In this document: positions 23,506 to 56,800 of the stretch, piece by piece
Numbering within the stretch: position 1 is the stretch's first letter
Layout: each line of letters starts with the position of its first letter
Origin: Apoderus coryli
Taxonomy: Eukaryota > Arthropoda > Insecta > Coleoptera > Attelabidae
Reading direction: 5' to 3'
Length of the DNA: 64,000 nt
Assembly: GCA_911728435.2 (NCBI GenBank)
Contig: OU452206.1
Coordinates: forward strand, 186,001 to 250,000
Made by a program: the position numbers and the translations under genes
The notes under the pieces: generated by a model
What the model saw: only the letters and a program-made list of their open reading frames with translations
What the model was told of the DNA's origin: nothing
Database searches by the model: none

Positions 23506-23566
23506 ATCAAAAAAGGTCGGTCGTACAAAAAGAATATGTGAAACAATAATACAAGAGAAGAAGACT

Positions 23567-30440: not shown

Positions 30441-31365
30441 ATTTTAAAGAAGTAGTCCATTCTGAAGTGGAGTGAATGTATTGTAGTAGGAAATAAAAGT
30501 CTGACTCCACAAAATCAATTTAATACGTTACACTCAATGTGTTACATCCAAACATGTTTCGAAGCTCACTAGCTTCATCATCAGTGGTAAATTTCGAGAG
30601 AAAATTGTATTTGCAAATATTACATATGACTAGGTTGAGAGTAATGTGTTGAAGTCTGAAAAAGGACCTTTTTTGTTATAATGTAGTTACGTTGTTGTAA
30701 TTAAATAACTCACCATTTTGAGGAAAAAATTTTTGTTAATGTTATTAAAATAAAATCATGTTAACATATGTTATATCTGGTTTTTCTTTTTTGTGATCAT
30801 TGCAGAATAGAATTTTTTAACAAAGTTGTGGTCTGTCTTTCTACGCAGTACCTGATAGACAAAATGGTTGATATTTCGATTGTTAATAATAATAATATTC
30901 AAAATTGGTGGTATGTATGTTGATCCCTCTAGTGGGTGGAGGTATAATTAAATAAATAACTATATGAATTTGTTGTTTTGAGCGCTGTCTTATTTTGCAG
31001 ACTTCAACATTAACAATATGTATATGTTATCTAGAAAACTACAATCTATACAGGAAGCACAAGTTTATATTTGTTATTACAGTTATCTTTTGTGGTATAG
31101 TAAACGATTAGTTCTACAAATTTATTCATAGATGTCTTTGACAATGGTTATACATTCAATAAACAAACACAATGCCGATATGCAACCAATCAAGCATCTC
31201 TAAGTTATATTTAAATGTTGATATACGTGACCGTAATAGCATCATCATGTTATAATCTATTATGAGAGGATGTTACATGTAATTATACGTTCTTGTTTAT
31301 TGTTTTATTATAAATTATGTTTATGTGTTAATGTTACAGATGGAGGTTCGACTGAGATGCATAAG
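30441..31365 (-). repeat. PLE 3' pseudo-LTR, left end of array
   Basis: Region downstream of the copy A ORF. It carries the hammerhead-like block (minus strand, CTGATGA at 30584-30578) and ends by running about 20 bases into the start of the next unit's ORF (codons for MDYFF) before stopping at the target-site duplication. Confidence 0.75.
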
Positions 31366-33945
31366 TTATTTATCTGTGATAGAAAGAGACTTGAAGAATT
31401 TAGTAGATGTAAAGTCAGTCTGTTCATTAAGGCAAATGATTGAAGGTGTGTTATTTTTAATAGTTATCTCCATAATTTCAAGGGTGTTTAACAACGTGCC
31501 TTTGTTACATATGTGTAAAAGTGTAACATCTCTTGTGGGATCGAAGTTATGATTAAAATTTATAATGTGGTTTGCGAAGGATGATTTGCTATTTATGTTG
31601 GTATGGTTCTGTGATTTTGCTTTAGTGATGATTTTGTGATGTTCGTCAATTCTAGTTTTGAGTGCTCTACCTGACTGACCAACATACTCAGCTGCACAAT
31701 TAGGGTCTCCACATTTAAGAGAATACACTCCGGATTTTGAGGACCAGTGAGATTTGTCTTTGCTATTGTTAAGAGAGAGATTGATAGTGTTGCTTGTACG
31801 AAAGCATATGTTTATGTTATACTGGTCGTAAATCTTTTTTAGTTGTATACAAAATGGGTGTATATATGTAATTGGGTAGAATTTAGGTAATGTTCTAGTA
31901 GTGGTGTCCATTAGATTTTTATGTATAAATTTATTTATGTTTTTGTAGTAAATTCTATTAATTGTTGCAATTGGATATCCATTGGTTTTTGCCAGATGGT
32001 ATATAATGGAGAGTTCTTCATTAAAGTGTTGAGGCGACATTGGTATATTGAACAATCTATAGAAGAATGAATTGAAAGCAGCAAATTTATGAGAATATGG
32101 GTGGTTCGAAGTGAATGGTATAGTGACATCTGTACTTGTGCTCTTGTGGTATATCGAGTATGACAAATGGTTAGAGTTTCGATGGATTCTTACGTCCAGA
32201 AAAGGTAGGCTATGATTGTTCTCTATCTCTACGGTGAACTGTATACGGTTATGTATGGTATTCATGAATGCGAGAGTATTATTTAAGTCTTCATTGGAGC
32301 CTTGGAAGACTGCTAGAATGTCATCAACATATCGAAAATATGTAATGAAGTGGTTTCCGTAAGTGGGATGACTTAATATTTTTTGTTCTAGGTTAGTCAT
32401 GAATACCTCTGCTAATAGTGACGAAGTGGAAGCTCCCATTGCAAGACCATCGTTCTGTTTATATATTATATTGTTAAACTGGAAGAAATTTTGGTCTACC
32501 GCAACATTCAGTAGGTTAATGATGTCTTGGACGCAATCATTACTAAGAGAAGAATGTGTGGAAAGAAGTTCTTGGACTAAAGTTATGCTTTCGTTAAGTG
32601 GGACACTTGGAAAAAGGTTTTTAACGTCAAACGAAACTAGGAACGCGTTGTTCGGGCAGTGTATATCTTTCAGTTTATGGCACAATTCAATCGAGTTATT
32701 TATTGAATATGGTGGCCTGAACTCTGTGTGTTTCTTGATTACATAATTTAGCCATTTAGACAGTTTAGCTGCTGGGGAAGTAGAGTAGCAAACTATAGGT
32801 CGAACCGGCATGTTTAATTTGTGAGTTTTAATTTGTGCTCTTAACATAGGTATCTGTGGGTTCATATTAATTAGTTTATATTTGTTAGTATGTAATTCGG
32901 ACAATGTATTTTTCGCCGCCTCTATTGTTTTTCTAAGTTTTGTTTGATAATTATTGAGTGGGTTTGTCTGTAATATAGAGAAGTCTGGTGTATTAAGAAA
33001 ATCATTAACTTTAGTGATATATGTGTCTTTATCACAGATGACCGTACAGTTGCTTTTATCGCTTTTACTCAGGATTAAATTATTCTCGGATAATTTAGTT
33101 TTGATATTTTTAATAATTTTTGTTTCTTGTGACTTTAAGTTATTAGTGTTTGTGTGATTCTTATATGTGTCATTCAAAAGTTTAGAAACATTAGCGTGTA
33201 TAATTTCTTTTTCAGGGGGATTTGTTATTTCTAGGATAGTTTCGCATTCTGCGGCTATGATTTTAAGACTTTTATTGTTTAAATTATTGTGTATATTATA
33301 TTTTAGACCTTTATCGAGAAGATTCAATTCTTGGTTAGAGAATGTAGTGTTGGAAAGGTTAAGTGTTCGAGTATGGAATTGAAAGTTATTGTGTACGATA
33401 TTATGAGGGAATTGTTCATTAAAATTTTGGTTATAAAATGGTATATTATTGTCGTTGAATGATACATTGTCCTGTAAATCATTGTTGTCATAAACTAAAT
33501 GTCTATAATTAGTGGGTTGATTAGTATAAGTTCTAGTTTTAAGAGATTCAAATTTGTATTGTAATCTATTTTCTTTAACGGTACCTTTTTGATGTACAAT
33601 ATCACGGATTTTCATTTGTAGTGCGTCCCATTCAAGTTGATGTAGTTCCTTAACTAGTGCCATTGTAACGTAATGAAGTTTCATATCGATCATACTCTGT
33701 TTTCTGTGTAGTTGTTTTATTTCTTCTCTCAACCATGTTCGTTTGGCTGCCTCAATTGCTTTTTGGGCGGATGGAGAGCTGTTCTTGGTTCTAATTTGTA
33801 TATATCTAGGTGTTAGCCCGTTATTTTTACATTTGCAGTTGAAGTAGATGTCCAGTTTCACATATTTTCTTTGGATTGACAATTTCTCGTATTCTCGGAC
33901 TAAAGTAGCTTGACTAGCATTATTTATTTTAAAGAAGTAGTCCAT
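31366..33945 (-). CDS. PLE copy A: reverse transcriptase with GIY-YIG endonuclease
   Basis: A complete 859-codon ORF from ATG at 33943-33945. Penelope-type RT spans about residues 300-650, with FDVKNLFPSVP (439-449), DGLAMGASTSSL (499-510) and YVDD (539-542). The C-terminal GIY-YIG endonuclease has GVY (739-741), YVG (754-756), Arg765 and Glu823/826, with Cys residues nearby as in Penelope. RT and endonuclease carry out target-primed reverse transcription. Copy A differs from all other copies at three residues clustered in the N-terminal part (Ala66, Asn164, Tyr171). The product looks full length and undamaged. Confidence 0.92.
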   Translation of the reverse strand: MDYFFKINNASQATLVREYEKLSIQRKYVKLDIYFNCKCKNNGLTPRYIQIRTKNSSPSAQKAIEAAKRTWLREEIKQLHRKQSMIDMKLHYVTMALVKELHQLEWDALQMKIRDIVHQKGTVKENRLQYKFESLKTRTYTNQPTNYRHLVYDNNDLQDNVSFNDNNIPFYNQNFNEQFPHNIVHNNFQFHTRTLNLSNTTFSNQELNLLDKGLKYNIHNNLNNKSLKIIAAECETILEITNPPEKEIIHANVSKLLNDTYKNHTNTNNLKSQETKIIKNIKTKLSENNLILSKSDKSNCTVICDKDTYITKVNDFLNTPDFSILQTNPLNNYQTKLRKTIEAAKNTLSELHTNKYKLINMNPQIPMLRAQIKTHKLNMPVRPIVCYSTSPAAKLSKWLNYVIKKHTEFRPPYSINNSIELCHKLKDIHCPNNAFLVSFDVKNLFPSVPLNESITLVQELLSTHSSLSNDCVQDIINLLNVAVDQNFFQFNNIIYKQNDGLAMGASTSSLLAEVFMTNLEQKILSHPTYGNHFITYFRYVDDILAVFQGSNEDLNNTLAFMNTIHNRIQFTVEIENNHSLPFLDVRIHRNSNHLSYSIYHKSTSTDVTIPFTSNHPYSHKFAAFNSFFYRLFNIPMSPQHFNEELSIIYHLAKTNGYPIATINRIYYKNINKFIHKNLMDTTTRTLPKFYPITYIHPFCIQLKKIYDQYNINICFRTSNTINLSLNNSKDKSHWSSKSGVYSLKCGDPNCAAEYVGQSGRALKTRIDEHHKIITKAKSQNHTNINSKSSFANHIINFNHNFDPTRDVTLLHICNKGTLLNTLEIMEITIKNNTPSIICLNEQTDFTSTKFFKSLSITDK

Positions 33946-34638
33946 TCTGAAGTGGAGTGAATGTATTGTAGTAGGAAATAAAAGTCTGACTCCACAAAAT
34001 CAATTTAATACGTTACACTCAATGTGTTACATCCAAACATGTTTCGAAGCTCACTAGCTTCATCATCAGTGGTAAATTTCGAGAGAAAATTGTATTTGCA
34101 AATATTACATATGACTAGGTTGAGAGTAATGTGTTGAAGTCTGAAAAAGGACCTTTTTTGTTATAATGTAGTTACGTTGTTGTAATTAAATAACTCACCA
34201 TTTTGAGGAAAAAATTTTTGTTAATGTTATTAAAATAAAATCATGTTAACATATGTTATATCTGGTTTTTCTTTTTTGTGATCATTGCAGAATAGAATTT
34301 TTTAACAAAGTTGTGGTCTGTCTTTCTACGCAGTACCTGATAGACAAAATGGTTGATATTCGATTGTTAATAATAATAATATTCAAAATTGGTGGTATGT
34401 ATGTATGTCTTTGACAATGGTTATACATTCAATAAACAAACACAATGCCGATATGCAACCAATCAAGCATCTCTAAGTTATATTTAAATGTTGATATACG
34501 TGACCGTAATAGCATCATCATGTTATAATCTATTATGAGAGGATGTTACATGTAATTATACGTTCTTGTTTATTGTTTTATTATAAATTATGTTTATGTG
34601 TTAATGTTACAGATGGAGGTTCGACTGAGATGCATAAG
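33946..34638 (-). repeat. PLE pseudo-LTR between copies A and B, 212-bp deletion
   Basis: Lacks the 212 bp that other spacers carry between GGTATGTATG and ATGTCTTTGAC (junction near 34400). The hammerhead-like block is retained (CTGATGA at 34069-34063 on the minus strand). Confidence 0.75.
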
Positions 34639-37218
34639 TTATTTATCTGTGATAGAAAGAGACTTGAAGAATTTAGTAGATGTAAAGTCAGTCTGTTCAT
34701 TAAGGCAAATGATTGAAGGTGTGTTATTTTTAATAGTTATCTCCATAATTTCAAGGGTGTTTAACAACGTGCCTTTGTTACATATGTGTAAAAGTGTAAC
34801 ATCTCTTGTGGGATCGAAGTTATGATTAAAATTTATAATGTGGTTTGCGAAGGATGATTTGCTATTTATGTTGGTATGGTTCTGTGATTTTGCTTTAGTG
34901 ATGATTTTGTGATGTTCGTCAATTCTAGTTTTGAGTGCTCTACCTGACTGACCAACATACTCAGCTGCACAATTAGGGTCTCCACATTTAAGAGAATACA
35001 CTCCGGATTTTGAGGACCAGTGAGATTTGTCTTTGCTATTGTTAAGAGAGAGATTGATAGTGTTGCTTGTACGAAAGCATATGTTTATGTTATACTGGTC
35101 GTAAATCTTTTTTAGTTGTATACAAAATGGGTGTATATATGTAATTGGGTAGAATTTAGGTAATGTTCTAGTAGTGGTGTCCATTAGATTTTTATGTATA
35201 AATTTATTTATGTTTTTGTAGTAAATTCTATTAATTGTTGCAATTGGATATCCATTGGTTTTTGCCAGATGGTATATAATGGAGAGTTCTTCATTAAAGT
35301 GTTGAGGCGACATTGGTATATTGAACAATCTATAGAAGAATGAATTGAAAGCAGCAAATTTATGAGAATATGGGTGGTTCGAAGTGAATGGTATAGTGAC
35401 ATCTGTACTTGTGCTCTTGTGGTATATCGAGTATGACAAATGGTTAGAGTTTCGATGGATTCTTACGTCCAGAAAAGGTAGGCTATGATTGTTCTCTATC
35501 TCTACGGTGAACTGTATACGGTTATGTATGGTATTCATGAATGCGAGAGTATTATTTAAGTCTTCATTGGAGCCTTGGAAGACTGCTAGAATGTCATCAA
35601 CATATCGAAAATATGTAATGAAGTGGTTTCCGTAAGTGGGATGACTTAATATTTTTTGTTCTAGGTTAGTCATGAATACCTCTGCTAATAGTGACGAAGT
35701 GGAAGCTCCCATTGCAAGACCATCGTTCTGTTTATATATTATATTGTTAAACTGGAAGAAATTTTGGTCTACCGCAACATTCAGTAGGTTAATGATGTCT
35801 TGGACGCAATCATTACTAAGAGAAGAATGTGTGGAAAGAAGTTCTTGGACTAAAGTTATGCTTTCGTTAAGTGGGACACTTGGAAAAAGGTTTTTAACGT
35901 CAAACGAAACTAGGAACGCGTTGTTCGGGCAGTGTATATCTTTCAGTTTATGGCACAATTCAATCGAGTTATTTATTGAATATGGTGGCCTGAACTCTGT
36001 GTGTTTCTTGATTACATAATTTAGCCATTTAGACAGTTTAGCTGCTGGGGAAGTAGAGTAGCAAACTATAGGTCGAACCGGCATGTTTAATTTGTGAGTT
36101 TTAATTTGTGCTCTTAACATAGGTATCTGTGGGTTCATATTAATTAGTTTATATTTGTTAGTATGTAATTCGGACAATGTATTTTTCGCCGCCTCTATTG
36201 TTTTTCTAAGTTTTGTTTGATAATTATTGAGTGGGTTTGTCTGTAATATAGAGAAGTCTGGTGTATTAAGAAAATCATTAACTTTAGTGATATATGTGTC
36301 TTTATCACAGATGACCGTACAGTTGCTTTTATCGCTTTTACTCAGGATTAAATTATTCTCGGATAATTTAGTTTTGATATTTTTAATAATTTTTGTTTCT
36401 TGTGACTTTAAGTTATTAGTGTTTGTGTGATTCTTATATGTGTCATTCAAAAGTTTAGAAACATTAGCGTGTATAATTTCTTTTTCAGGGGGATTTGTTA
36501 TTTCTAGGATAGTTTCGCATTCTGCGGCTATGATTTTAAGACTTTTATTGTTTAAATTATTGTGTATATTATATTTTAGACCTTTATCGAGAAGATTCAA
36601 TTCTTGGTTAGAGAATGTAGTGTTGGAAAGGTTAAGTGTTCGAGTATGGAATTGAAAGTTATTGTGTACGATATTATGAGGGAATTGTTCATTAAAATTT
36701 TGGTTATCAAATGGTATATTATTGTCGTCGAATGATACATTGTCCTGTAAATCATTGTTGTCATAAACTAAATGTCTATAATTAGTGGGTTGATTAGTAT
36801 AAGTTCTAGTTTTAAGAGATTCAAATTTGTATTGTAATCTATTTTCTTTAACGGTACCTTTTTGATGTACAATATCACGGATTTTCATTTGTAGTGCGTC
36901 CCATTCAAGTTGATGTAGTTCCTTAACTAGTGCCATTGTAACGTAATGAAGTTTCATATCGATCATACTCTGTTTTCTGTGTAGTTGTTTTATTTCTTCT
37001 CTCAACCATGTTCGTTTGGCTGTCTCAATTGCTTTTTGGGCGGATGGAGAGCTGTTCTTGGTTCTAATTTGTATATATCTAGGTGTTAGCCCGTTATTTT
37101 TACATTTGCAGTTGAAGTAGATGTCCAGTTTCACATATTTTCTTTGGATTGACAATTTCTCGTATTCTCGGACTAAAGTAGCTTGACTAGCATTATTTAT
37201 TTTAAAGAAGTAGTCCAT
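34639..37218 (-). CDS. PLE copy B: RT with GIY-YIG endonuclease
   Basis: Intact 859-codon ORF with all RT and GIY-YIG residues listed for copy A. It has the majority residues Thr66, Asp164 and Asp171. Confidence 0.92.
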   Translation of the reverse strand: MDYFFKINNASQATLVREYEKLSIQRKYVKLDIYFNCKCKNNGLTPRYIQIRTKNSSPSAQKAIETAKRTWLREEIKQLHRKQSMIDMKLHYVTMALVKELHQLEWDALQMKIRDIVHQKGTVKENRLQYKFESLKTRTYTNQPTNYRHLVYDNNDLQDNVSFDDNNIPFDNQNFNEQFPHNIVHNNFQFHTRTLNLSNTTFSNQELNLLDKGLKYNIHNNLNNKSLKIIAAECETILEITNPPEKEIIHANVSKLLNDTYKNHTNTNNLKSQETKIIKNIKTKLSENNLILSKSDKSNCTVICDKDTYITKVNDFLNTPDFSILQTNPLNNYQTKLRKTIEAAKNTLSELHTNKYKLINMNPQIPMLRAQIKTHKLNMPVRPIVCYSTSPAAKLSKWLNYVIKKHTEFRPPYSINNSIELCHKLKDIHCPNNAFLVSFDVKNLFPSVPLNESITLVQELLSTHSSLSNDCVQDIINLLNVAVDQNFFQFNNIIYKQNDGLAMGASTSSLLAEVFMTNLEQKILSHPTYGNHFITYFRYVDDILAVFQGSNEDLNNTLAFMNTIHNRIQFTVEIENNHSLPFLDVRIHRNSNHLSYSIYHKSTSTDVTIPFTSNHPYSHKFAAFNSFFYRLFNIPMSPQHFNEELSIIYHLAKTNGYPIATINRIYYKNINKFIHKNLMDTTTRTLPKFYPITYIHPFCIQLKKIYDQYNINICFRTSNTINLSLNNSKDKSHWSSKSGVYSLKCGDPNCAAEYVGQSGRALKTRIDEHHKIITKAKSQNHTNINSKSSFANHIINFNHNFDPTRDVTLLHICNKGTLLNTLEIMEITIKNNTPSIICLNEQTDFTSTKFFKSLSITDK

Positions 37219-38123
37219 TCTGAAGTGGAGTGAATGTATTGTAGTAGGAAATAAAAGTCTGACTCCACAAAATCAATTTAATACGTTACACTCAATGTGT
37301 TACATCCAAACATGTTTCGAAGCTCACTAGCTTCATCATCAGTGGTAAATTTCGAGAGAAAATTGTATTTGCAAATATTACATATGACTAGGTTGAGAGT
37401 AATGTGTTGAAGTCTGAAAAAGGACCTTTTTTGTTATAATGTAGTTACGTTGTTGTAATTAAATAACTCACCATTTTGAGGAAAAAATTTTTGTTAATGT
37501 TATTAAAATAAAATCATGTTAACATATGTTATATCTGGTTTTTCTTTTTTGTGATCATTGCAGAATAGAATTTTTTAACAAAGTTGTGGTCTGTCTTTCT
37601 ACGCAGTACCTGATAGACAAAATGGTTGATATTTCGATTGTTAATAATAATAATATTCAAAATTGGTGGTATGTATGTTGATCCCTCTAGTGGGTGGAGG
37701 TATAATTAAATAAATAACTATATGAATTTGTTGTTTTGAGCGCTGTCTTATTTTGCAGACTTCAACATTAACAATATGTATATGTTATCTAGAAAACTAC
37801 AATCTATACAGGAAGCACAAGTTTATATTTGTTATTACAGTTATCTTTTGTGGTATAGTAAACGATTAGTTCTACAAATTTATTCATAGATGTCTTTGAC
37901 AATGGTTATACATTCAATAAACAAACACAATGCCGATATGCAACCAATCAAGCATCTCTAAGTTATATTTAAATGTTGATATACGTGACCGTAATAGCAT
38001 CATCATGTTATAATCTATTATGAGAGGATGTTACATGTAATTATACGTTCTTGTTTATTGTTTTATTATAAATTATGTTTATGTGTTAATGTTACAGATG
38101 GAGGTTCGACTGAGATGCATAAG
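37219..38123 (-). repeat. PLE pseudo-LTR between copies B and C
   Basis: Full-length 905-bp inter-ORF region with the hammerhead-like block (CTGATGA at 37342-37336, minus strand) and the candidate 5'-leader intron. Confidence 0.75.
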
Positions 38124-40703
38124 TTATTTATCTGTGATAGAAAGAGACTTGAAGAATTTAGTAGATGTAAAGTCAGTCTGTTCATTAAGGCAAATGATTG
38201 AAGGTGTGTTATTTTTAATAGTTATCTCCATAATTTCAAGGGTGTTTAACAACGTGCCTTTGTTACATATGTGTAAAAGTGTAACATCTCTTGTGGGATC
38301 GAAGTTATGATTAAAATTTATAATGTGGTTTGCGAAGGATGATTTGCTATTTATGTTGGTATGGTTCTGTGATTTTGCTTTAGTGATGATTTTGTGATGT
38401 TCGTCAATTCTAGTTTTGAGTGCTCTACCTGACTGACCAACATACTCAGCTGCACAATTAGGGTCTCCACATTTAAGAGAATACACTCCGGATTTTGAGG
38501 ACCAGTGAGATTTGTCTTTGCTATTGTTAAGAGAGAGATTGATAGTGTTGCTTGTACGAAAGCATATGTTTATGTTATACTGGTCGTAAATCTTTTTTAG
38601 TTGTATACAAAATGGGTGTATATATGTAATTGGGTAGAATTTAGGTAATGTTCTAGTAGTGGTGTCCATTAGATTTTTATGTATAAATTTATTTATGTTT
38701 TTGTAGTAAATTCTATTAATTGTTGCAATTGGATATCCATTGGTTTTTGCCAGATGGTATATAATGGAGAGTTCTTCATTAAAGTGTTGAGGCGACATTG
38801 GTATATTGAACAATCTATAGAAGAATGAATTGAAAGCAGCAAATTTATGAGAATATGGGTGGTTCGAAGTGAATGGTATAGTGACATCTGTACTTGTGCT
38901 CTTGTGGTATATCGAGTATGACAAATGGTTAGAGTTTCGATGGATTCTTACGTCCAGAAAAGGTAGGCTATGATTGTTCTCTATCTCTACGGTGAACTGT
39001 ATACGGTTATGTATGGTATTCATGAATGCGAGAGTATTATTTAAGTCTTCATTGGAGCCTTGGAAGACTGCTAGAATGTCATCAACATATCGAAAATATG
39101 TAATGAAGTGGTTTCCGTAAGTGGGATGACTTAATATTTTTTGTTCTAGGTTAGTCATGAATACCTCTGCTAATAGTGACGAAGTGGAAGCTCCCATTGC
39201 AAGACCATCGTTCTGTTTATATATTATATTGTTAAACTGGAAGAAATTTTGGTCTACCGCAACATTCAGTAGGTTAATGATGTCTTGGACGCAATCATTA
39301 CTAAGAGAAGAATGTGTGGAAAGAAGTTCTTGGACTAAAGTTATGCTTTCGTTAAGTGGGACACTTGGAAAAAGGTTTTTAACGTCAAACGAAACTAGGA
39401 ACGCGTTGTTCGGGCAGTGTATATCTTTCAGTTTATGGCACAATTCAATCGAGTTATTTATTGAATATGGTGGCCTGAACTCTGTGTGTTTCTTGATTAC
39501 ATAATTTAGCCATTTAGACAGTTTAGCTGCTGGGGAAGTAGAGTAGCAAACTATAGGTCGAACCGGCATGTTTAATTTGTGAGTTTTAATTTGTGCTCTT
39601 AACATAGGTATCTGTGGGTTCATATTAATTAGTTTATATTTGTTAGTATGTAATTCGGACAATGTATTTTTCGCCGCCTCTATTGTTTTTCTAAGTTTTG
39701 TTTGATAATTATTGAGTGGGTTTGTCTGTAATATAGAGAAGTCTGGTGTATTAAGAAAATCATTAACTTTAGTGATATATGTGTCTTTATCACAGATGAC
39801 CGTACAGTTGCTTTTATCGCTTTTACTCAGGATTAAATTATTCTCGGATAATTTAGTTTTGATATTTTTAATAATTTTTGTTTCTTGTGACTTTAAGTTA
39901 TTAGTGTTTGTGTGATTCTTATATGTGTCATTCAAAAGTTTAGAAACATTAGCGTGTATAATTTCTTTTTCAGGGGGATTTGTTATTTCTAGGATAGTTT
40001 CGCATTCTGCGGCTATGATTTTAAGACTTTTATTGTTTAAATTATTGTGTATATTATATTTTAGACCTTTATCGAGAAGATTCAATTCTTGGTTAGAGAA
40101 TGTAGTGTTGGAAAGGTTAAGTGTTCGAGTATGGAATTGAAAGTTATTGTGTACGATATTATGAGGGAATTGTTCATTAAAATTTTGGTTATCAAATGGT
40201 ATATTATTGTCGTCGAATGATACATTGTCCTGTAAATCATTGTTGTCATAAACTAAATGTCTATAATTAGTGGGTTGATTAGTATAAGTTCTAGTTTTAA
40301 GAGATTCAAATTTGTATTGTAATCTATTTTCTTTAACGGTACCTTTTTGATGTACAATATCACGGATTTTCATTTGTAGTGCGTCCCATTCAAGTTGATG
40401 TAGTTCCTTAACTAGTGCCATTGTAACGTAATGAAGTTTCATATCGATCATACTCTGTTTTCTGTGTAGTTGTTTTATTTCTTCTCTCAACCATGTTCGT
40501 TTGGCTGTCTCAATTGCTTTTTGGGCGGATGGAGAGCTGTTCTTGGTTCTAATTTGTATATATCTAGGTGTTAGCCCGTTATTTTTACATTTGCAGTTGA
40601 AGTAGATGTCCAGTTTCACATATTTTCTTTGGATTGACAATTTCTCGTATTCTCGGACTAAAGTAGCTTGACTAGCATTATTTATTTTAAAGAAGTAGTC
40701 CAT
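38124..40703 (-). CDS. PLE copy C: RT with GIY-YIG endonuclease
   Basis: Intact 859-codon ORF whose predicted protein is identical to copy B. One substitution lies just upstream of its start (near 40709: CTACAG instead of CTTCAG on the minus strand). Confidence 0.92.
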   Translation of the reverse strand: MDYFFKINNASQATLVREYEKLSIQRKYVKLDIYFNCKCKNNGLTPRYIQIRTKNSSPSAQKAIETAKRTWLREEIKQLHRKQSMIDMKLHYVTMALVKELHQLEWDALQMKIRDIVHQKGTVKENRLQYKFESLKTRTYTNQPTNYRHLVYDNNDLQDNVSFDDNNIPFDNQNFNEQFPHNIVHNNFQFHTRTLNLSNTTFSNQELNLLDKGLKYNIHNNLNNKSLKIIAAECETILEITNPPEKEIIHANVSKLLNDTYKNHTNTNNLKSQETKIIKNIKTKLSENNLILSKSDKSNCTVICDKDTYITKVNDFLNTPDFSILQTNPLNNYQTKLRKTIEAAKNTLSELHTNKYKLINMNPQIPMLRAQIKTHKLNMPVRPIVCYSTSPAAKLSKWLNYVIKKHTEFRPPYSINNSIELCHKLKDIHCPNNAFLVSFDVKNLFPSVPLNESITLVQELLSTHSSLSNDCVQDIINLLNVAVDQNFFQFNNIIYKQNDGLAMGASTSSLLAEVFMTNLEQKILSHPTYGNHFITYFRYVDDILAVFQGSNEDLNNTLAFMNTIHNRIQFTVEIENNHSLPFLDVRIHRNSNHLSYSIYHKSTSTDVTIPFTSNHPYSHKFAAFNSFFYRLFNIPMSPQHFNEELSIIYHLAKTNGYPIATINRIYYKNINKFIHKNLMDTTTRTLPKFYPITYIHPFCIQLKKIYDQYNINICFRTSNTINLSLNNSKDKSHWSSKSGVYSLKCGDPNCAAEYVGQSGRALKTRIDEHHKIITKAKSQNHTNINSKSSFANHIINFNHNFDPTRDVTLLHICNKGTLLNTLEIMEITIKNNTPSIICLNEQTDFTSTKFFKSLSITDK

Positions 40704-41608: not shown

Positions 41609-43450
41609 TTATTTATCTGTGATAGAAAGAGACTTGAAGAATTTAGTAGATGTAAAGTCAGTCTGTTCATTAAGGCAAATGATTGAAGGTGTGTTATTTT
41701 TAATAGTTATCTCCATAATTTCAAGGGTGTTTAACAACGTGCCTTTGTTACATATGTGTAAAAGTGTAACATCTCTTGTGGGATCGAAGTTATGATTAAA
41801 ATTTATAATGTGGTTTGCGAAGGATGATTTGCTATTTATGTTGGTATGGTTCTGTGATTTTGCTTTAGTGATGATTTTGTGATGTTCGTCAATTCTAGTT
41901 TTGAGTGCTCTACCTGACTGACCAACATACTCAGCTGCACAATTAGGGTCTCCACATTTAAGAGAATACACTCCGGATTTTGAGGACCAGTGAGATTTGT
42001 CTTTGCTATTGTTAAGAGAGAGATTGATAGTGTTGCTTGTACGAAAGCATATGTTTATGTTATACTGGTCGTAAATCTTTTTTAGTTGTATACAAAATGG
42101 GTGTATATATGTAATTGGGTAGAATTTAGGTAATGTTCTAGTAGTGGTGTCCATTAGATTTTTATGTATAAATTTATTTATGTTTTTGTAGTAAATTCTA
42201 TTAATTGTTGCAATTGGATATCCATTGGTTTTTGCCAGATGGTATATAATGGAGAGTTCTTCATTAAAGTGTTGAGGCGACATTGGTATATTGAACAATC
42301 TATAGAAGAATGAATTGAAAGCAGCAAATTTATGAGAATATGGGTGGTTCGAAGTGAATGGTATAGTGACATCTGTACTTGTGCTCTTGTGGTATATCGA
42401 GTATGACAAATGGTTAGAGTTTCGATGGATTCTTACGTCCAGAAAAGGTAGGCTATGATTGTTCTCTATCTCTACGGTGAACTGTATACGGTTATGTATG
42501 GTATTCATGAATGCGAGAGTATTATTTAAGTCTTCATTGGAGCCTTGGAAGACTGCTAGAATGTCATCAACATATCGAAAATATGTAATGAAGTGGTTTC
42601 CGTAAGTGGGATGACTTAATATTTTTTGTTCTAGGTTAGTCATGAATACCTCTGCTAATAGTGACGAAGTGGAAGCTCCCATTGCAAGACCATCGTTCTG
42701 TTTATATATTATATTGTTAAACTGGAAGAAATTTTGGTCTACCGCAACATTCAGTAGGTTAATGATGTCTTGGACGCAATCATTACTAAGAGAAGAATGT
42801 GTGGAAAGAAGTTCTTGGACTAAAGTTATGCTTTCGTTAAGTGGGACACTTGGAAAAAGGTTTTTAACGTCAAACGAAACTAGGAACGCGTTGTTCGGGC
42901 AGTGTATATCTTTCAGTTTATGGCACAATTCAATCGAGTTATTTATTGAATATGGTGGCCTGAACTCTGTGTGTTTCTTGATTACATAATTTAGCCATTT
43001 AGACAGTTTAGCTGCTGGGGAAGTAGAGTAGCAAACTATAGGTCGAACCGGCATGTTTAATTTGTGAGTTTTAATTTGTGCTCTTAACATAGGTATCTGT
43101 GGGTTCATATTAATTAGTTTATATTTGTTAGTATGTAATTCGGACAATGTATTTTTCGCCGCCTCTATTGTTTTTCTAAGTTTTGTTTGATAATTATTGA
43201 GTGGGTTTGTCTGTAATATAGAGAAGTCTGGTGTATTAAGAAAATCATTAACTTTAGTGATATATGTGTCTTTATCACAGATGACCGTACAGTTGCTTTT
43301 ATCGCTTTTACTCAGGATTAAATTATTCTCGGATAATTTAGTTTTGATATTTTTAATAATTTTTGTTTCTTGTGACTTTAAGTTATTAGTGTTTGTGTGA
43401 TTCTTATATGTGTCATTCAAAAGTTTAGAAACATTAGCGTGTATAATTTC
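41609..43450 (-). pseudogene. PLE copy D: 5'-truncated RT-endonuclease
   Basis: Reading frame open from the central junction (first residue corresponds to Glu247 of the full protein) to the normal stop. All RT and GIY-YIG motifs are present but the N-terminal 246 residues and any start signal are missing. It ends at the head-to-head junction with copy E. Confidence 0.85.
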
Positions 43451-44925
43451 CTATGTTAAGAGCACAAATTAAAACTCACAAATTAAACATGCCGGTTCGA
43501 CCTATAGTTTGCTACTCTACTTCCCCAGCCGCTAAACTGTCTAAATGGCTAAATTATGTAATCAAGAAACACACAGAGTTCAGGCCACCATATTCAATAA
43601 ATAACTCGATTGAATTGTGCCATAAACTGAAAGATATACACTGCCCGAACAACGCGTTCCTAGTTTCGTTTGACGTTAAAAACCTTTTTCCAAGTGTCCC
43701 ACTTAACGAAAGCATAACTTTAGTCCAAGAACTTCTTTCCACACATTCTTCTCTTAGTAATGATTGCGTCCAAGACATCATTAACCTACTGAATGTTGCG
43801 GTAGACCAAAATTTCTTCCAGTTTAACAATATAATATATAAACAGAACGATGGTCTTGCAATGGGAGCTTCCACTTCGTCACTATTAGCAGAGGTATTCA
43901 TGACTAACCTAGAACAAAAAATATTAAGTCATCCCACTTACGGAAACCACTTCATTACATATTTTCGATATGTTGATGACATTCTAGCAGTCTTCCAAGG
44001 CTCCAATGAAGACTTAAATAATACTCTCGCATTCATGAATACCATACATAACCGTATACAGTTCACCGTAGAGATAGAGAACAATCATAGCCTACCTTTT
44101 CTGGACGTAAGAATCCATCGAAACTCTAACCATTTGTCATACTCGATATACCACAAGAGCACAAGTACAGATGTCACTATACCATTCACTTCGAACCACC
44201 CATATTCTCATAAATTTGCTGCTTTCAATTCATTCTTCTATAGATTGTTCAATATACCAATGTCGCCTCAACACTTTAATGAAGAACTCTCCATTATATA
44301 CCATCTGGCAAAAACCAATGGATATCCAATTGCAACAATTAATAGAATTTACTACAAAAACATAAATAAATTTATACATAAAAATCTAATGGACACCACT
44401 ACTAGAACATTACCTAAATTCTACCCAATTACATATATACACCCATTTTGTATACAACTAAAAAAGATTTACGACCAGTATAACATAAACATATGCTTTC
44501 GTACAAGCAACACTATCAATCTCTCTCTTAACAATAGCAAAGACAAATCTCACTGGTCCTCAAAATCCGGAGTTAAATGTGGAGACCCTAATTGTGCAGC
44601 TGAGTATGTTGGTCAGTCAGGTAGAGCACTCAAAACTAGAATTGACGAACATCACAAAATCATCACTAAAGCAAAATCACAGAACCATACCAACATAAAT
44701 AGCAAATCATCCTTCGCAAACCACATTATAAATTTTAATCATAACTTCGATCCCACAAGAGATGTTACACTTTTACACATATGTAACAAAGGCACGTTGT
44801 TAAACACCCTTGAAATTATGGAGATAACTATTAAAAATAACACACCTTCAATCATTTGCCTTAATGAACAGACTGACTTTACATCTACTAAATTCTTCAA
44901 GTCTCTTTCTATCACAGATAAATAA
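43451..44925 (+). pseudogene. PLE copy E: 5'-truncated, damaged GIY motif
   Basis: Begins at the equivalent of residue 366-367 of the full protein, directly against copy D in opposite orientation. It keeps RT motifs and YVDD but has a private 9-bp deletion near 44573 that removes the Tyr-Ser-Leu of the GVYSL motif. The GIY half of the endonuclease active site is therefore lost while YVG, Arg and Glu remain. Confidence 0.88.
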
Positions 44926-45830
44926 CTTATGCATCTCAGTCGAACCTCCATCTGTAACATTAACACATAAACATAATTTATAATAAAACAATAAACAAGA
45001 ACGTATAATTACATGTAACATCCTCTCATAATAGATTATAACATGATGATGCTATTACGGTCACGTATATCAACATTTAAATATAACTTAGAGATGCTTG
45101 ATTGGTTGCATATCGGCATTGTGTTTGTTTATTGAATGTATAACCATTGTCAAAGACATCTATGAATAAATTTGTAGAACTAATCGTTTACTATACCACA
45201 AAAGATAACTGTAATAACAAATATAAACTTGTGCTTCCTGTATAGATTGTAGTTTTCTAGATAACATATACATATTGTTAATGTTGAAGTCTGCAAAATA
45301 AGACAGCGCTCAAAACAACAAATTCATATAGTTATTTATTTAATTATACCTCCACCCACTAGAGGGATCAACATACATACCACCAATTTTGAATATTATT
45401 ATTATTAACAATCGAAATATCAACCATTTTGTCTATCAGGTACTGCGTAGAAAGACAGACCACAACTTTGTTAAAAAATTCTATTCTGCAATGATCACAA
45501 AAAAGAAAAACCAGATATAACATATGTTAACATGATTTTATTTTAATAACATTAACAAAAATTTTTTCCTCAAAATGGTGAGTTATTTAATTACAACAAC
45601 GTAACTACATTATAACAAAAAAGGTCCTTTTTCAGACTTCAACACATTACTCTCAACCTAGTCATATGTAATATTTGCAAATACAATTTTCTCTCGAAAT
45701 TTACCACTGATGATGAAGCTAGTGAGCTTCGAAACATGTTTGGATGTAACACATTGAGTGTAACGTATTAAATTGATTTTGTGGAGTCAGACTTTTATTT
45801 CCTACTACAATACATTCACTCCACTTCAGA
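44926..45830 (+). repeat. PLE pseudo-LTR between copies E and F
   Basis: Full 905 bp. The hammerhead-like core (CTGATGA 45707-45713, a GAAGC/GCTTC stem, then GAAAC 45731-45735) lies about 100 bp before the ORF. A candidate intron runs from GTGAGT at 45578 to CAG at 45827-45829, one base before the ATG. Confidence 0.75.
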
Positions 45831-48410
45831 ATGGACTACTTCTTTAAAATAAATAATGCTAGTCAAGCTACTTTAGTCCGAGAATACGAGAAATTGTCAA
45901 TCCAAAGAAAATATGTGAAACTGGACATCTACTTCAACTGCAAATGTAAAAATAACGGGCTAACACCTAGATATATACAAATTAGAACCAAGAACAGCTC
46001 TCCATCCGCCCAAAAAGCAATTGAGACAGCCAAACGAACATGGTTGAGAGAAGAAATAAAACAACTACACAGAAAACAGAGTATGATCGATATGAAACTT
46101 CATTACGTTACAATGGCACTAGTTAAGGAACTACATCAACTTGAATGGGACGCACTACAAATGAAAATCCGTGATATTGTACATCAAAAAGGTACCGTTA
46201 AAGAAAATAGATTACAATACAAATTTGAATCTCTTAAAACTAGAACTTATACTAATCAACCCACTAATTATAGACATTTAGTTTATGACAACAATGATTT
46301 ACAGGACAATGTATCATTCGACGACAATAATATACCATTTGATAACCAAAATTTTAATGAACAATTCCCTCATAATATCGTACACAATAACTTTCAATTC
46401 CATACTCGAACACTTAACCTTTCCAACACTACATTCTCTAACCAAGAATTGAATCTTCTCGATAAAGGTCTAAAATATAATATACACAATAATTTAAACA
46501 ATAAAAGTCTTAAAATCATAGCCGCAGAATGCGAAACTATCCTAGAAATAACAAATCCCCCTGAAAAAGAAATTATACACGCTAATGTTTCTAAACTTTT
46601 GAATGACACATATAAGAATCACACAAACACTAATAACTTAAAGTCACAAGAAACAAAAATTATTAAAAATATCAAAACTAAATTATCCGAGAATAATTTA
46701 ATCCTGAGTAAAAGCGATAAAAGCAACTGTACGGTCATCTGTGATAAAGACACATATATCACTAAAGTTAATGATTTTCTTAATACACCAGACTTCTCTA
46801 TATTACAGACAAACCCACTCAATAATTATCAAACAAAACTTAGAAAAACAATAGAGGCGGCGAAAAATACATTGTCCGAATTACATACTAACAAATATAA
46901 ACTAATTAATATGAACCCACAGATACCTATGTTAAGAGCACAAATTAAAACTCACAAATTAAACATGCCGGTTCGACCTATAGTTTGCTACTCTACTTCC
47001 CCAGCAGCTAAACTGTCTAAATGGCTAAATTATGTAATCAAGAAACACACAGAGTTCAGGCCACCATATTCAATAAATAACTCGATTGAATTGTGCCATA
47101 AACTGAAAGATATACACTGCCCGAACAACGCGTTCCTAGTTTCGTTTGACGTTAAAAACCTTTTTCCAAGTGTCCCACTTAACGAAAGCATAACTTTAGT
47201 CCAAGAACTTCTTTCCACACATTCTTCTCTTAGTAATGATTGCGTCCAAGACATCATTAACCTACTGAATGTTGCGGTAGACCAAAATTTCTTCCAGTTT
47301 AACAATATAATATATAAACAGAACGATGGTCTTGCAATGGGAGCTTCCACTTCGTCACTATTAGCAGAGGTATTCATGACTAACCTAGAACAAAAAATAT
47401 TAAGTCATCCCACTTACGGAAACCACTTCATTACATATTTTCGATATGTTGATGACATTCTAGCAGTCTTCCAAGGCTCCAATGAAGACTTAAATAATAC
47501 TCTCGCATTCATGAATACCATACATAACCGTATACAGTTCACCGTAGAGATAGAGAACAATCATAGCCTACCTTTTCTGGACGTAAGAATCCATCGAAAC
47601 TCTAACCATTTGTCATACTCGATATACCACAAGAGCACAAGTACAGATGTCACTATACCATTCACTTCGAACCACCCATATTCTCATAAATTTGCTGCTT
47701 TCAATTCATTCTTCTATAGATTGTTCAATATACCAATGTCGCCTCAACACTTTAATGAAGAACTCTCCATTATATACCATCTGGCAAAAACCAATGGATA
47801 TCCAATTGCAACAATTAATAGAATTTACTACAAAAACATAAATAAATTTATACATAAAAATCTAATGGACACCACTACTAGAACATTACCTAAATTCTAC
47901 CCAATTACATATATACACCCATTTTGTATACAACTAAAAAAGATTTACGACCAGTATAACATAAACATATGCTTTCGTACAAGCAACACTATCAATCTCT
48001 CTCTTAACAATAGCAAAGACAAATCTCACTGGTCCTCAAAATCCGGAGTGTATTCTCTTAAATGTGGAGACCCTAATTGTGCAGCTGAGTATGTTGGTCA
48101 GTCAGGTAGAGCACTCAAAACTAGAATTGACGAACATCACAAAATCATCACTAAAGCAAAATCACAGAACCATACCAACATAAATAGCAAATCATCCTTC
48201 GCAAACCACATTATAAATTTTAATCATAACTTCGATCCCACAAGAGATGTTACACTTTTACACATATGTAACAAAGGCACGTTGTTAAACACCCTTGAAA
48301 TTATGGAGATAACTATTAAAAATAACACACCTTCAATCATTTGCCTTAATGAACAGACTGACTTTACATCTACTAAATTCTTCAAGTCTCTTTCTATCAC
48401 AGATAAATAA
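45831..48410 (+). CDS. PLE copy F: RT with GIY-YIG endonuclease
   Basis: Intact 859-codon ORF identical in predicted protein to copies B and C, in opposite orientation. It is a good reference copy of the element. Confidence 0.92.
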   Translation: MDYFFKINNASQATLVREYEKLSIQRKYVKLDIYFNCKCKNNGLTPRYIQIRTKNSSPSAQKAIETAKRTWLREEIKQLHRKQSMIDMKLHYVTMALVKELHQLEWDALQMKIRDIVHQKGTVKENRLQYKFESLKTRTYTNQPTNYRHLVYDNNDLQDNVSFDDNNIPFDNQNFNEQFPHNIVHNNFQFHTRTLNLSNTTFSNQELNLLDKGLKYNIHNNLNNKSLKIIAAECETILEITNPPEKEIIHANVSKLLNDTYKNHTNTNNLKSQETKIIKNIKTKLSENNLILSKSDKSNCTVICDKDTYITKVNDFLNTPDFSILQTNPLNNYQTKLRKTIEAAKNTLSELHTNKYKLINMNPQIPMLRAQIKTHKLNMPVRPIVCYSTSPAAKLSKWLNYVIKKHTEFRPPYSINNSIELCHKLKDIHCPNNAFLVSFDVKNLFPSVPLNESITLVQELLSTHSSLSNDCVQDIINLLNVAVDQNFFQFNNIIYKQNDGLAMGASTSSLLAEVFMTNLEQKILSHPTYGNHFITYFRYVDDILAVFQGSNEDLNNTLAFMNTIHNRIQFTVEIENNHSLPFLDVRIHRNSNHLSYSIYHKSTSTDVTIPFTSNHPYSHKFAAFNSFFYRLFNIPMSPQHFNEELSIIYHLAKTNGYPIATINRIYYKNINKFIHKNLMDTTTRTLPKFYPITYIHPFCIQLKKIYDQYNINICFRTSNTINLSLNNSKDKSHWSSKSGVYSLKCGDPNCAAEYVGQSGRALKTRIDEHHKIITKAKSQNHTNINSKSSFANHIINFNHNFDPTRDVTLLHICNKGTLLNTLEIMEITIKNNTPSIICLNEQTDFTSTKFFKSLSITDK

Positions 48411-49315
48411 CTTATGCATCTCAGTCGAACCTCCATCTGTAACATTAACACATAAACATAATTTATAATAAAACAATAAACAAGAACGTATAATTACATG
48501 TAACATCCTCTCATAATAGATTATAACATGATGATGCTATTACGGTCACGTATATCAACATTTAAATATAACTTAGAGATGCTTGATTGGTTGCATATCG
48601 GCATTGTGTTTGTTTATTGAATGTATAACCATTGTCAAAGACATCTATGAATAAATTTGTAGAACTAATCGTTTACTATACCACAAAAGATAACTGTAAT
48701 AACAAATATAAATTTGTGCTTCCTGTATAGATTGTAGTTTTCTAGATAACATATACATATTGTTAATGTTGAAGTCTGCAAAATAAGACAGCGCTCAAAA
48801 CAACAAATTCATATAGTTATTTATTTAATTATACCTCCACCCACTAGAGGGATCAACATACATACCACCAATTTTGAATATTATTATTATTAACAATCGA
48901 AATATCAACCATTTTGTCTATCAGGTACTGCGTAGAAAGACAGACCACAACTTTGTTAAAAAATTCTATTCTGCAATGATCACAAAAAAGAAAAACCAGA
49001 TATAACATATGTTAACATGATTTTATTTTAATAACATTAACAAAAATTTTTTCCTCAAAATGGTGAGTTATTTAATTACAACAACGTAACTACATTATAA
49101 CAAAAAAGGTCCTTTTTCAGACTTCAACACATTACTCTCAACCTAGTCATATGTAATATTTGCAAATACAATTTTCTCTCGAAATTTACCACTGATGATG
49201 AAGCTAGTGAGCTTCGAAACATGTTTGGATGTAACACATTGAGTGTAACGTATTAAATTGATTTTGTGGAGTCAGACTTTTATTTCCTACTACAATACAT
49301 TCACTCCACTTGAGA
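48411..49315 (+). repeat. PLE pseudo-LTR between copies F and G
   Basis: Full-length; hammerhead-like core with CTGATGA at 49192-49198. The base pattern just before the ATG is CTTGAG instead of CTTCAG, which weakens the candidate intron acceptor. Confidence 0.75.
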
Positions 49316-51895
49316 ATGGACTACTTCTTTAAAATAAATAATGCTAGTCAAGCTACTTTAGTCCGAGAATACGAGAAATTGTCAATCCAAAGAAAATATG
49401 TGAAACTGGACATCTACTTCAACTGCAAATGTAAAAATAACGGGCTAACACCTAGATATATACAAATTAGAACCAAGAACAGCTCTCCATCCGCCCAAAA
49501 AGCAATTGAGACAGCCAAACGAACATGGTTGAGAGAAGAAATAAAACAACTACACAGAAAACAGAGTATGATCGATATGAAACTTCATTACGTTACAATG
49601 GCACTAGTTAAGGAACTACATCAACTTGAATGGGACGCACTACAAATGAAAATCCGTGATATTGTACATCAAAAAGGTACCGTTAAAGAAAATAGATTAC
49701 AATACAAATTTGAATCTCTTAAAACTAGAACTTATACTAATCAACCCACTAATTATAGACATTTAGTTTATGACAACAATGATTTACAGGACAATGTATC
49801 ATTCGACGACAATAATATACCATTTGATAACCAAAATTTTAATGAACAATTCCCTCATAATATCGTACACAATAACTTTCAATTCCATACTCGAACACTT
49901 AACCTTTCCAACACTACATTCTCTAACCAAGAATTGAATCTTCTCGATAAAGGTCTAAAATATAATATACACAATAATTTAAACAATAAAAGTCTTAAAA
50001 TCATAGCCGCAGAATGCGAAACTATCCTAGAAATAACAAATCCCCCTGAAAAAGAAATTATACACGCTAATGTTTCTAAACTTTTGAATGACACATATAA
50101 GAATCACACAAACACTAATAACTTAAAGTCACAAGAAACAAAAATTATTAAAAATATCAAAACTAAATTATCCGAGAATAATTTAATCCTGAGTAAAAGC
50201 GATAAAAGCAACTGTACGGTCATCTGTGATAAAGACACATATATCACTAAAGTTAATGATTTTCTTAATACACCAGACTTCTCTATATTACAGACAAACC
50301 CACTCAATAATTATCAAACAAAACTTAGAAAAACAATAGAGGCGGCGAAAAATACATTGTCCGAATTACATACTAACAAATATAAACTAATTAATATGAA
50401 CCCACAGATACCTATGTTAAGAGCACAAATTAAAACTCACAAATTAAACATGCCGGTTCGACCTATAGTTTGCTACTCTACTTCCCCAGCAGCTAAACTG
50501 TCTAAATGGCTAAATTATGTAATCAAGAAACACACAGAGTTCAGGCCACCATATTCAATAAATAACTCGATTGAATTGTGCCATAAACTGAAAGATATAC
50601 ACTGCCCGAACAACGCGTTCCTAGTTTCGTTTGACGTTAAAAACCTTTTTCCAAGTGTCCCACTTAACGAAAGCATAACTTTAGTCCAAGAACTTCTTTC
50701 CACACATTCTTCTCTTAGTAATGATTGCGTCCAAGACATCATTAACCTACTGAATGTTGCGGTAGACCAAAATTTCTTCCAGTTTAACAATATAATATAT
50801 AAACAGAACGATGGTCTTGCAATGGGAGCTTCCACTTCGTCACTATTAGCAGAGGTATTCATGACTAACCTAGAACAAAAAATATTAAGTCATCCCACTT
50901 ACGGAAACCACTTCATTACATATTTTCGATATGTTGATGACATTCTAGCAGTCTTCCAAGGCTCCAATGAAGACTTAAATAATACTCTCGCATTCATGAA
51001 TACCATACATAACCGTATACAGTTCACCGTAGAGATAGAGAACAATCATAGCCTACCTTTTCTGGACGTAAGAATCCATCGAAACTCTAACCATTTATCA
51101 TACTCGATATACCACAAGAGCACAAGTACAGATGTCACTATACCATTCACTTCGAACCACCCATATTCTCATAAATTTGCTGCTTTCAATTCATTCTTCT
51201 ATAGATTGTTCAATATACCAATGTCGCCTCAACACTTTAATGAAGAACTCTCCATTATATACCATCTGGCAAAAACCAATGGATATCCAATTGCAACAAT
51301 TAATAGAATTTACTACAAAAACATAAATAAATTTATACATAAAAATCTAATGGACACCACTACTAGAACATTACCTAAATTCTACCCAATTACATATATA
51401 CACCCATTTTGTATACAACTAAAAAAGATTTACGACCAGTATAACATAAACATATGCTTTCGTACAAGCAACACTATCAATCTCTCTCTTAACAATAGCA
51501 AAGACAAATCTCACTGGTCCTCAAAATCCGGAGTGTATTCTCTTAAATGTGGAGACCCTAATTGTGCGGCTGAGTATGTTGGTCAGTCAGGTAGAGCACT
51601 CAAAACTAGAATTGACGAACATCACAAAATCATCACTAAAGCAAAATCACAGAACCATACCAACATAAATAGCAAATCATCCTTCGCAAACCACATTATA
51701 AATTTTAATCATAACTTCGATCCCACAAGAGATGTTACACTTTTACACATATGTAACAAAGGCACGTTGTTAAACACCCTTGAAATTATGGAGATAACTA
51801 TTAAAAATAACACACCTTCAATCATTTGCCTTAATGAACAGACTGACTTTACATCTACTAAATTCTTCAAGTCTCTTTCTATCACAGATAAATAA
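49316..51895 (+). CDS. PLE copy G: RT with GIY-YIG endonuclease
   Basis: Intact 859-codon ORF. I start it at ATG 49316; the frame opens slightly earlier only because of the substitution at the acceptor-like site. The predicted protein equals copy F; silent changes occur near 51098 and 51568. Confidence 0.92.
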   Translation: MDYFFKINNASQATLVREYEKLSIQRKYVKLDIYFNCKCKNNGLTPRYIQIRTKNSSPSAQKAIETAKRTWLREEIKQLHRKQSMIDMKLHYVTMALVKELHQLEWDALQMKIRDIVHQKGTVKENRLQYKFESLKTRTYTNQPTNYRHLVYDNNDLQDNVSFDDNNIPFDNQNFNEQFPHNIVHNNFQFHTRTLNLSNTTFSNQELNLLDKGLKYNIHNNLNNKSLKIIAAECETILEITNPPEKEIIHANVSKLLNDTYKNHTNTNNLKSQETKIIKNIKTKLSENNLILSKSDKSNCTVICDKDTYITKVNDFLNTPDFSILQTNPLNNYQTKLRKTIEAAKNTLSELHTNKYKLINMNPQIPMLRAQIKTHKLNMPVRPIVCYSTSPAAKLSKWLNYVIKKHTEFRPPYSINNSIELCHKLKDIHCPNNAFLVSFDVKNLFPSVPLNESITLVQELLSTHSSLSNDCVQDIINLLNVAVDQNFFQFNNIIYKQNDGLAMGASTSSLLAEVFMTNLEQKILSHPTYGNHFITYFRYVDDILAVFQGSNEDLNNTLAFMNTIHNRIQFTVEIENNHSLPFLDVRIHRNSNHLSYSIYHKSTSTDVTIPFTSNHPYSHKFAAFNSFFYRLFNIPMSPQHFNEELSIIYHLAKTNGYPIATINRIYYKNINKFIHKNLMDTTTRTLPKFYPITYIHPFCIQLKKIYDQYNINICFRTSNTINLSLNNSKDKSHWSSKSGVYSLKCGDPNCAAEYVGQSGRALKTRIDEHHKIITKAKSQNHTNINSKSSFANHIINFNHNFDPTRDVTLLHICNKGTLLNTLEIMEITIKNNTPSIICLNEQTDFTSTKFFKSLSITDK

Positions 51896-52778
51896 CTTAT
51901 GCATCTCAGTCGAACCTCCATCTGTAACATTAACACATAAACATAATTTATAATAAAACAATAAACAAGAACGTATAATTACATGTAACATCCTCTCATA
52001 ATAGATTATAACATGATGATGCTATTACGGTCACGTATATCAACATTTAAATATAACTTAGAGATGCTTGATTGGTTGCATATCGGCATTGTGTTTGTTT
52101 ATTGAATGTATAACCATTGTCAAAGACATCTATGAATAAATTTGTAGAACTAATCGTTTACTATACCACAAAAGATAACTGTAATAACAAATATAAACTT
52201 GTGCTTCCTGTATAGATTGTAGTTTTCTAGATAACATATACATATTGTTAATGTTGAAGTCTGCAAAATAAGACAGCGCTCAAAACAACAAATTCATATA
52301 GTTATTTATTTAATTATACCTCCATCCACTAGAGGGATCAACATACATACCACCAATTTTGAATATTATTATTATTAACAATCGAAATATCAACCATTTT
52401 GTCTATCAGGTACTGCGTAGAAAGACAGACCACAACTTTGTTAAAAAATTCTATTCTGCAATGATCACAAAAAAGAAAAACCAGATATAACATATGTTAA
52501 CATGATTTTATTTTAATAACATTAACAAAAATTTTTTCCTCAAAATGGTGAGTTATTTAATTACAACAACGTAACTACATTATAACAAAAAAGGTCCTTT
52601 TTCAGACTTCAACACATTACTCTCAACCTAGTCATATGTAATATTTGCAAATACAATTTTCTCTCGAAATTTACCACTGATGATGAAGCTAGTGAGCTTC
52701 GAAACATGTTTGGATGTAACACATTGAGTGTAACGTATTAAATTGATTTTGTGGAGTCAGACTTTTATTTCCTACTAC
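51896..52778 (+). repeat. PLE 3' pseudo-LTR, right end of array
   Basis: Contains the hammerhead-like core (CTGATGA at 52677-52683) and stops at CCTACTAC, 22 bp short of where the next ORF would start. The target-site duplication follows immediately. Confidence 0.75.
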
Positions 52779-52790
52779 TATTATGAATAT
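52779..52790. repeat. 12-bp target-site duplication, right
   Basis: TATTATGAATAT, identical to 30429-30440. Confidence 0.8.
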
Positions 52791-56793: not shown

Positions 56794-56800
56794 CAATATT

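Follow-up and report, generated by a model that had tools for sequence, protein, structure and literature searches.

Seven Copies of a Penelope-like Element in Two Opposed Arms Within One Target-Site Duplication in Apoderus coryli: A Probable Product of Two-Ended Target-Primed Reverse Transcription

How Penelope-like elements (PLEs) complete their insertion into a chromosome is an open question, and it is raised in readable form by a locus in the beetle Apoderus coryli. In the window analyzed here, 64,000 nucleotides of contig OU452206.1 (assembly GCA_911728435.2, positions 186,001 to 250,000 of the forward strand; coordinates below are window positions), seven copies of a PLE form a 22,338-bp block at 30441-52778 in two opposite-facing rows, with four minus-strand copies (30441-43450) followed by three plus-strand copies (43451-52778), just as a preliminary description of this DNA had reported. 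The 3' ends of the element face outward on both sides, and the 5' sides meet at 43450/43451. The locus looks like a finished insertion product in which both starts, both arms and the join between them can be read, and the question is how such a block came about.

The same 12 bases, TATTATGAATAT, lie immediately outside both ends of the block, at 30429-30440 and 52779-52790, in agreement with the earlier claim. Both copies of this target-site duplication (TSD) were defined by exact match and by alignment of the empty site, and on the plus strand of the window TATTATGAATAT occurs exactly at these two places only. Calculated base by base for this composition, two fixed points would agree at all 12 bases with a probability of ~2.4e-7, and ~200,000 randomly paired positions in the flanks gave no such match. 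When the flanks are rejoined with one copy of TATTATGAATAT, the empty site is an unbroken unit of a short local repeat and aligns through the TSD to neighboring sequence at 30070-30382 (68% identity) and 52857-53014 (75%), with one TSD counterpart in each aligned neighbor unit. This repeat, the target of the PLE insertion, occupies 30064-30428 on the left and 52791-53014 on the right. Because the empty site is continuous and the chance of the match negligible, the block behaves in its entirety like a single insertion with a single TSD. The flanks thus do rejoin into an ordinary repeat unit as first described, and the "satellite" to which that unit was assigned amounts to about three diverged units of ~200 bp each near the site.

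Each complete unit codes for a single protein of 859 amino acids, whose open reading frame (ORF) is open in all five copies that hold it entirely (Lb, Lc, Ld, Rb and Rc). A Pfam search covering 10 of the 19 window ORFs of at least 200 amino acids detected a reverse transcriptase (RT) domain in this protein, and gave no match in its C-terminal 141 residues. An alignment with 11 of the 25 relatives found, however, revealed the invariant residues G739, Y741, Y754, G756, R760, R765, E768, H769 and N840 in this region, which we take to be the GIY-YIG endonuclease motif; Pfam detects GIY-YIG in four of the 12 aligned members, the window protein not among them. The predicted fold (mean predicted local distance difference test score 83.6) has telomerase reverse transcriptases as its first solved structural matches in Foldseek, with low template-modeling scores (0.29 and 0.40), since RT folds of other kinds rank closely behind; a sequence search of the PDB with the protein returned no hits. 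Judged from its RT, its GIY-YIG residues and the telomerase-like fold prediction, the element is an endonuclease-bearing PLE, and of the features by which PLEs are classified, it has a telomerase-like RT followed by a GIY-YIG endonuclease, tandem units (here of 3485 bp) that form pseudo-long terminal repeats (pLTRs) and the optional 3' tail of 30-40 nt (here 42 nt, on the left arm). The nearest named proteins to that of the PLE are from Coccinella (42% identity over 60%) and Cacopsylla (31%). Further relatives, at 21-45% identity in the best segment, were located at 14 loci in viral contigs and 39 in genome contigs with bacterial titles, nearly all of these matches being limited to the RT part. 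The protein encoded at 45831-48410 differs from its relatives in the conserved GLPKIHK region, ADKGN and GSPLSP (residues ~294-300, 367-376 and 503-509) and keeps the YVDD residues; the altered stretches may point to a divergent family or to one without full activity.

Positions within the 3485-bp unit were numbered as phases, with copy Rb as the reference and phase 1 as the base after TATTTCCTACTAC. From its outer end the left row starts at phase 42 (30441) with a 42-nt tail (30441-30482, minus strand, phase 42 down to 1) and continues through Lb, Lc, Ld and Le to phase 761 at the center, while the right row starts at phase 3485 (52778) and continues through Rc, Rb and Ra to phase 1119. Lb (30483-33967), Ld (37241-40725), Rb (45809-49293) and Rc (49294-52778) are full units of exactly 3485 bp with intact ORFs at 31366-33945, 38124-40703, 45831-48410 and 49316-51895, respectively. 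Lc (33968-37240, 3273 bp) retains an intact ORF (34639-37218) and carries two private deletions, one of 211 bp (phase 2837-3047, junction 34404/34405) and one of 1 bp. Le (40726-43450, 2725 bp) and Ra (43451-45808, 2358 bp) are truncated at the center, beginning at phases 761 and 1119, and Ra has a private 9-bp deletion at phase 2241-2249. This last deletion (near 44572) hits the GIY part of the endonuclease motif in the truncated copy. The constant unit length of the preliminary description is therefore right for the four full copies and wrong for Lc, Le and Ra, whereas its arm sizes of about 3.8 and 2.7 units come close to the measured 3.73 (13.0 kb) and 2.68 (9.3 kb). Likewise, the array is palindromic in the sense that its arms are inverted, but the arms begin at different phases (761 and 1119) and leave a 357-bp spacer at 43094-43450.

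Both outer ends are element 3' ends, and they lie 42 nt apart in phase (42 versus 3485): the left arm extends 42 nt past the unit end as the tail, while the right arm, in which Rc ends at phase 3485, has no tail and abuts the TSD. On each flank the side of the 3' overhang passes directly into antisense element sequence, with 1 nt shared between primer and element at the left junction and none at the right. Relative to the ORF, the two cDNA starts lie 23 nt before it and 20 nt into it. A single TSD around two arms whose element 3' ends face outward is the arrangement by which two-ended target-primed reverse transcription (TPRT) is recognized, and it is the arrangement found here.

Within the arms the register is broken only three times, by the deletions of 211, 1 and 9 bp. 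Unit boundaries are seamless: the 140 nt preceding the boundary are identical in all seven copies, and no bases were added or lost in these 140 nt (7/7) or in the 17 nt following it (5/5 copies that reach so far). The sole large out-of-register join is the center (43450/43451), where phase 761 meets phase 1119 head to head with 1 nt of microhomology, and where exact inverted matches within 60 bp on either side do not exceed 6 bp. The seamless boundaries support well the repeated template of the preliminary description, a multimeric or circular RNA, and exact jumps fit them too; template jumping between RNAs is retained only in an exact end-to-end form, since boundary bases were neither added nor lost. 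An element 3' end on each arm calls for either two RNA templates or a circle that was copied in two passes. Moreover, because all variants among the copies are private (see below), the source units must have been alike at every visible site, as would hold for a circle, for a highly uniform array or for jumps made exactly end to end, and a multimeric transcript, a circle and such jumps would each be a suitable template.

The 140 nt before the boundary span a hammerhead-like motif; a minimal hammerhead in the pLTR is a further feature by which PLEs are classified. The core at 49192-49230 (plus strand) consists of CTGATGA, a six-pair stem II and GAAA, a pattern which we take to be the hammerhead core motif. 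It occurs once per unit, the other cores beginning at 45707 and 52677 on the plus strand and at 30584, 34069, 37342 and 40827 on the minus strand, so that all seven units and no other part of the window contain it, compared with 0.04 occurrences per strand expected by chance (100 mononucleotide shuffles). Rfam gave no match in the whole window at the gathering threshold, and at E values up to 10 the non-coding part of one unit (48411-49400) gave five matches to unrelated families and none to a hammerhead. Read by hand, the motif has a weak stem I and an extra U following the core, and a putative cut may fall at about phase 3417, which lies upstream of the two cDNA starts. Retrozymes and hammerhead circular RNAs likewise comprise tandem hammerhead-bearing units, and multimeric cDNA can be made from a circular RNA template (PMC7761336, PMC6155905). 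Retrozymes are, however, small and non-coding in these accounts, whereas the present element codes for 859 amino acids and its circle is only a candidate template.

These features are very probably explained by two-ended TPRT on a repeated template. In the mechanism that we propose, the PLE ribonucleoprotein would make cuts 12 nt apart in the two strands of a single AT-rich site and generate two 3' overhangs. Both overhangs would serve as primers for copying PLE RNA, and both copies would start inside the RNA: at phase 42, the far end of the 42-nt tail, from the top-strand primer on the left, and at phase 3485, the near end of the tail, from the bottom-strand primer on the right. The polymerases would then copy the repeated template through several units, 13.2 kb on one side and 9.3 kb on the other, passing four and three hammerhead-like motifs on the way, until the growing cDNA ends were joined head to head in the middle of the array with almost no homology; filling of the overhangs would give the 12-bp duplication. 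The order of these steps, priming on both strands in the host species, arrival of all units at once and the kind of template are what we infer.

The closest analogy is PAc (Poseidon_Ac), a PLE of the lizard Anolis carolinensis for which Frangieh et al. (2024, PMC11167929) report that both target strands are cut and extended in vitro. In that system, copying begins at two adjacent internal RNA sites that bound the 30-40 nt tail of genomic copies and are not homologous to the cut DNA, in agreement with the 1 nt and 0 nt that primer and element share at the A. coryli junctions. PAc and the A. coryli element have in common a single RT and GIY-YIG ORF, tandem organization and an AT-rich target; the PAc hammerhead lies near the ORF start, with the hammerhead-like core similarly placed here, and the two PAc starts bounding the tail correspond to outer ends at both tail boundaries in the array. 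The elements differ in that the commonest PAc start is 111-118 bp into the ORF, compared with 23 nt before and 20 nt into it at this locus (PMC11167929). Unprocessed RNA was the dominant PAc template and hammerhead mutants still inserted, and steps beyond first-strand synthesis on either strand were left for validation (PMC11167929). The joined two-strand product can be read at the genomic site in A. coryli; the PAc work, in its accessible text, does not include such a product and mentions no TSD and nothing multimeric or circular (PMC11167929). A multi-unit, two-armed PLE inside one TSD was sought in the open-access literature, and an earlier printed account may exist.

Whether all of the units were delivered together is a question of its own, which the variation among copies addresses. 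The copies differ by 11 substitutions and three indels, each private to one copy and none common to both arms, and the units are >99.7% alike in aligned bases; six of the seven have private substitutions (three of them in Lb), and the seventh, Lc, has private deletions. When gradual stepwise growth was modeled by Yule simulation at constant rate, the mean probability that all variants would be private was 0.019 (median 0.001, 95th percentile of trees 0.10), and the way the substitutions are spread over the copies is compatible with copies of the same age (Monte Carlo p 0.38). The private variants moderately favor one event, and it is probable that all seven copies were delivered in that one two-ended event. 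The arrival of the 22 kb at once, as proposed in the preliminary description, thus draws on the single TSD and the lack of shared variants, and that the copy number stems from the same event is favored rather than demonstrated.

The explanation that competes best is that a smaller two-armed insertion with the same TSD and arms slightly longer than one unit grew later by whole-unit additions through gene conversion or unequal exchange, which would preserve both the 3485-bp register and the single TSD. Consistent with such growth, Lc and Rb, although in opposite arms, have no substitutions between them over 3273 bp. However, no variant is common to any two copies, as gradual growth would rarely allow, and equal ages are not rejected, so that we regard later growth as unlikely. 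It would also need a repeated template, as does delivery in one event: an arm of less than one unit has no internal repeat through which it could gain whole units, so one or both of the original arms would have had to exceed a unit from the outset. Early expansion of a smaller insertion would look almost identical to a single event.

Several points weigh against delivery of the whole array by two-ended priming in one event. A continuous cDNA of 13 kb is long for a retroelement. Seven of the 11 substitutions fall in the two outermost full copies, which make up 31% of the length (p 0.027, post hoc), and this excess leans weakly toward younger inner copies, as unequal exchange would give; with indels included the count is 7/14 (p 0.11), and the probability that any pair of copies would have at least seven is 0.26. 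A rapid early burst of amplification soon after insertion would, furthermore, pass the Yule test. Extension on both strands was demonstrated for the lizard element, another PLE than this one (PMC11167929), and for the present PLE priming on both strands would hold by analogy. Lastly, the inverted junctions of PLEs in the rotifer Adineta vaga consistently hold palindromes, which the authors read as evidence of self-priming (PMC3846280).

An error of assembly, by which the copy number or the inversion would stem from mis-joined or collapsed repeats, has little probability. A 22-kb array of such similar units is difficult to assemble, and a near-identical duplication of 16.6 kb lies just to its left. 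Against this, the exact TSD match between the two ends and the intactness of the empty site would have to be fortuitous, the private substitutions in six copies and private deletions in Lc tell the units apart, and there is no N in the window.

Even less probable is an origin by snap-back or self-priming, with one arm serving as template for its partner or with folded antisense RNA as the template. Head-to-head PLE structures with junction palindromes are frequent in A. vaga, and the authors, citing these palindromes, favor self-priming on antisense RNA (PMC3846280). The A. vaga Penelope insertions and the A. coryli array indeed share a head-to-head inverted arm, with TSDs of 8-10 bp in several A. 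vaga cases and none in some, and an optional tail on one inverted pLTR corresponds to the tail on the left arm only (PMC3846280). Yet the inverted pieces of A. vaga are pLTR-sized (181 and 212 bp) or 304 bp, among the sizes given in the accessible text, whereas the shorter arm here is 9.3 kb and holds two full units; longer tandem or inverted structures are mentioned there for two families and could not be assembled (PMC3846280). Junction palindromes, usual in A. vaga (PMC3846280), are lacking at the A. coryli center with its 1-nt homology, and the right arm is tail-less and abuts the TSD. A copied arm would also inherit variants, while the 211-bp and 9-bp deletions and the 11 substitutions are all unshared; copying from arm to arm is disfavored because all variants are private.

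That several separate insertions were nested in one another is extremely improbable, for although cleavage of PLE DNA by the PLE protein is possible in vitro (PMC11167929), nesting predicts two out-of-register joins and an internal TSD, in place of the one large break at the center and the three deletions seen.

Twin priming as known from L1 was considered separately. In L1 twin priming, cDNA synthesis is primed by the 3'-OH on each side of a single break, and the resulting inverted pieces lie within one TSD, with the element 3' end on one arm only; this does not fit the present locus, where the two arms each have that end. Of the two forms of priming named in the preliminary description, two-ended priming at one staggered break is thus well supported, and twin priming in the L1 sense falls away.

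The surroundings of the array contain other repeats and ORFs. Positions 1-9963 and 16577-26539 are direct copies, 99.84% identical and 16,576 bp apart, with 14 mismatches and two gaps, possibly a tandem duplication of ~16.6 kb that ends at 26539 and begins left of the window, either real or a haplotype artifact. At 10817-14126 (minus strand), a retroelement ORF in which RT-RNaseH is combined with integrase zinc-binding domains lies beside an ORF with a baculovirus-F-like envelope domain, presumably an errantivirus-like arrangement. Just right of the array, an open frame of 942 amino acids (53980-56808, minus strand) encodes a non-long terminal repeat reverse transcriptase with an endonuclease domain, whose best-scoring relative is 48% identical and whose nearest named protein is from Parnassius (37%). 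It is followed by an ORF with a Pif1 helicase 2B domain (57608-58219, minus strand), which we assume is perhaps a Helitron remnant, and by foldback-like inverted repeats at 62537-63398 that are ~68-75% complementary over several hundred bases.

Beyond this locus, two-ended TPRT may be the normal course of PLE integration, each strand being initiated at one of the two tail boundaries and copied from RNA that is repeated or circular. What is known as an inverted pLTR would then be a short second arm made in the same reaction, and the A. coryli array a long-armed example whose 22 kb, five intact ORFs included, arrived together. We put this generalization forward tentatively and give it somewhat less than even weight: the absence of a palindrome at the center supports two-ended priming here, but it counts against extending the explanation to all inverted pLTRs. 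A two-ended account would cover three oddities of PLEs, namely their tandem copies, their inverted pLTRs and their one-sided tail, and it gives concrete predictions for any PLE-rich genome. If the array arose in one event, a retroelement can deliver more than 20 kb, including several open copies of itself, at a single chromosomal break.

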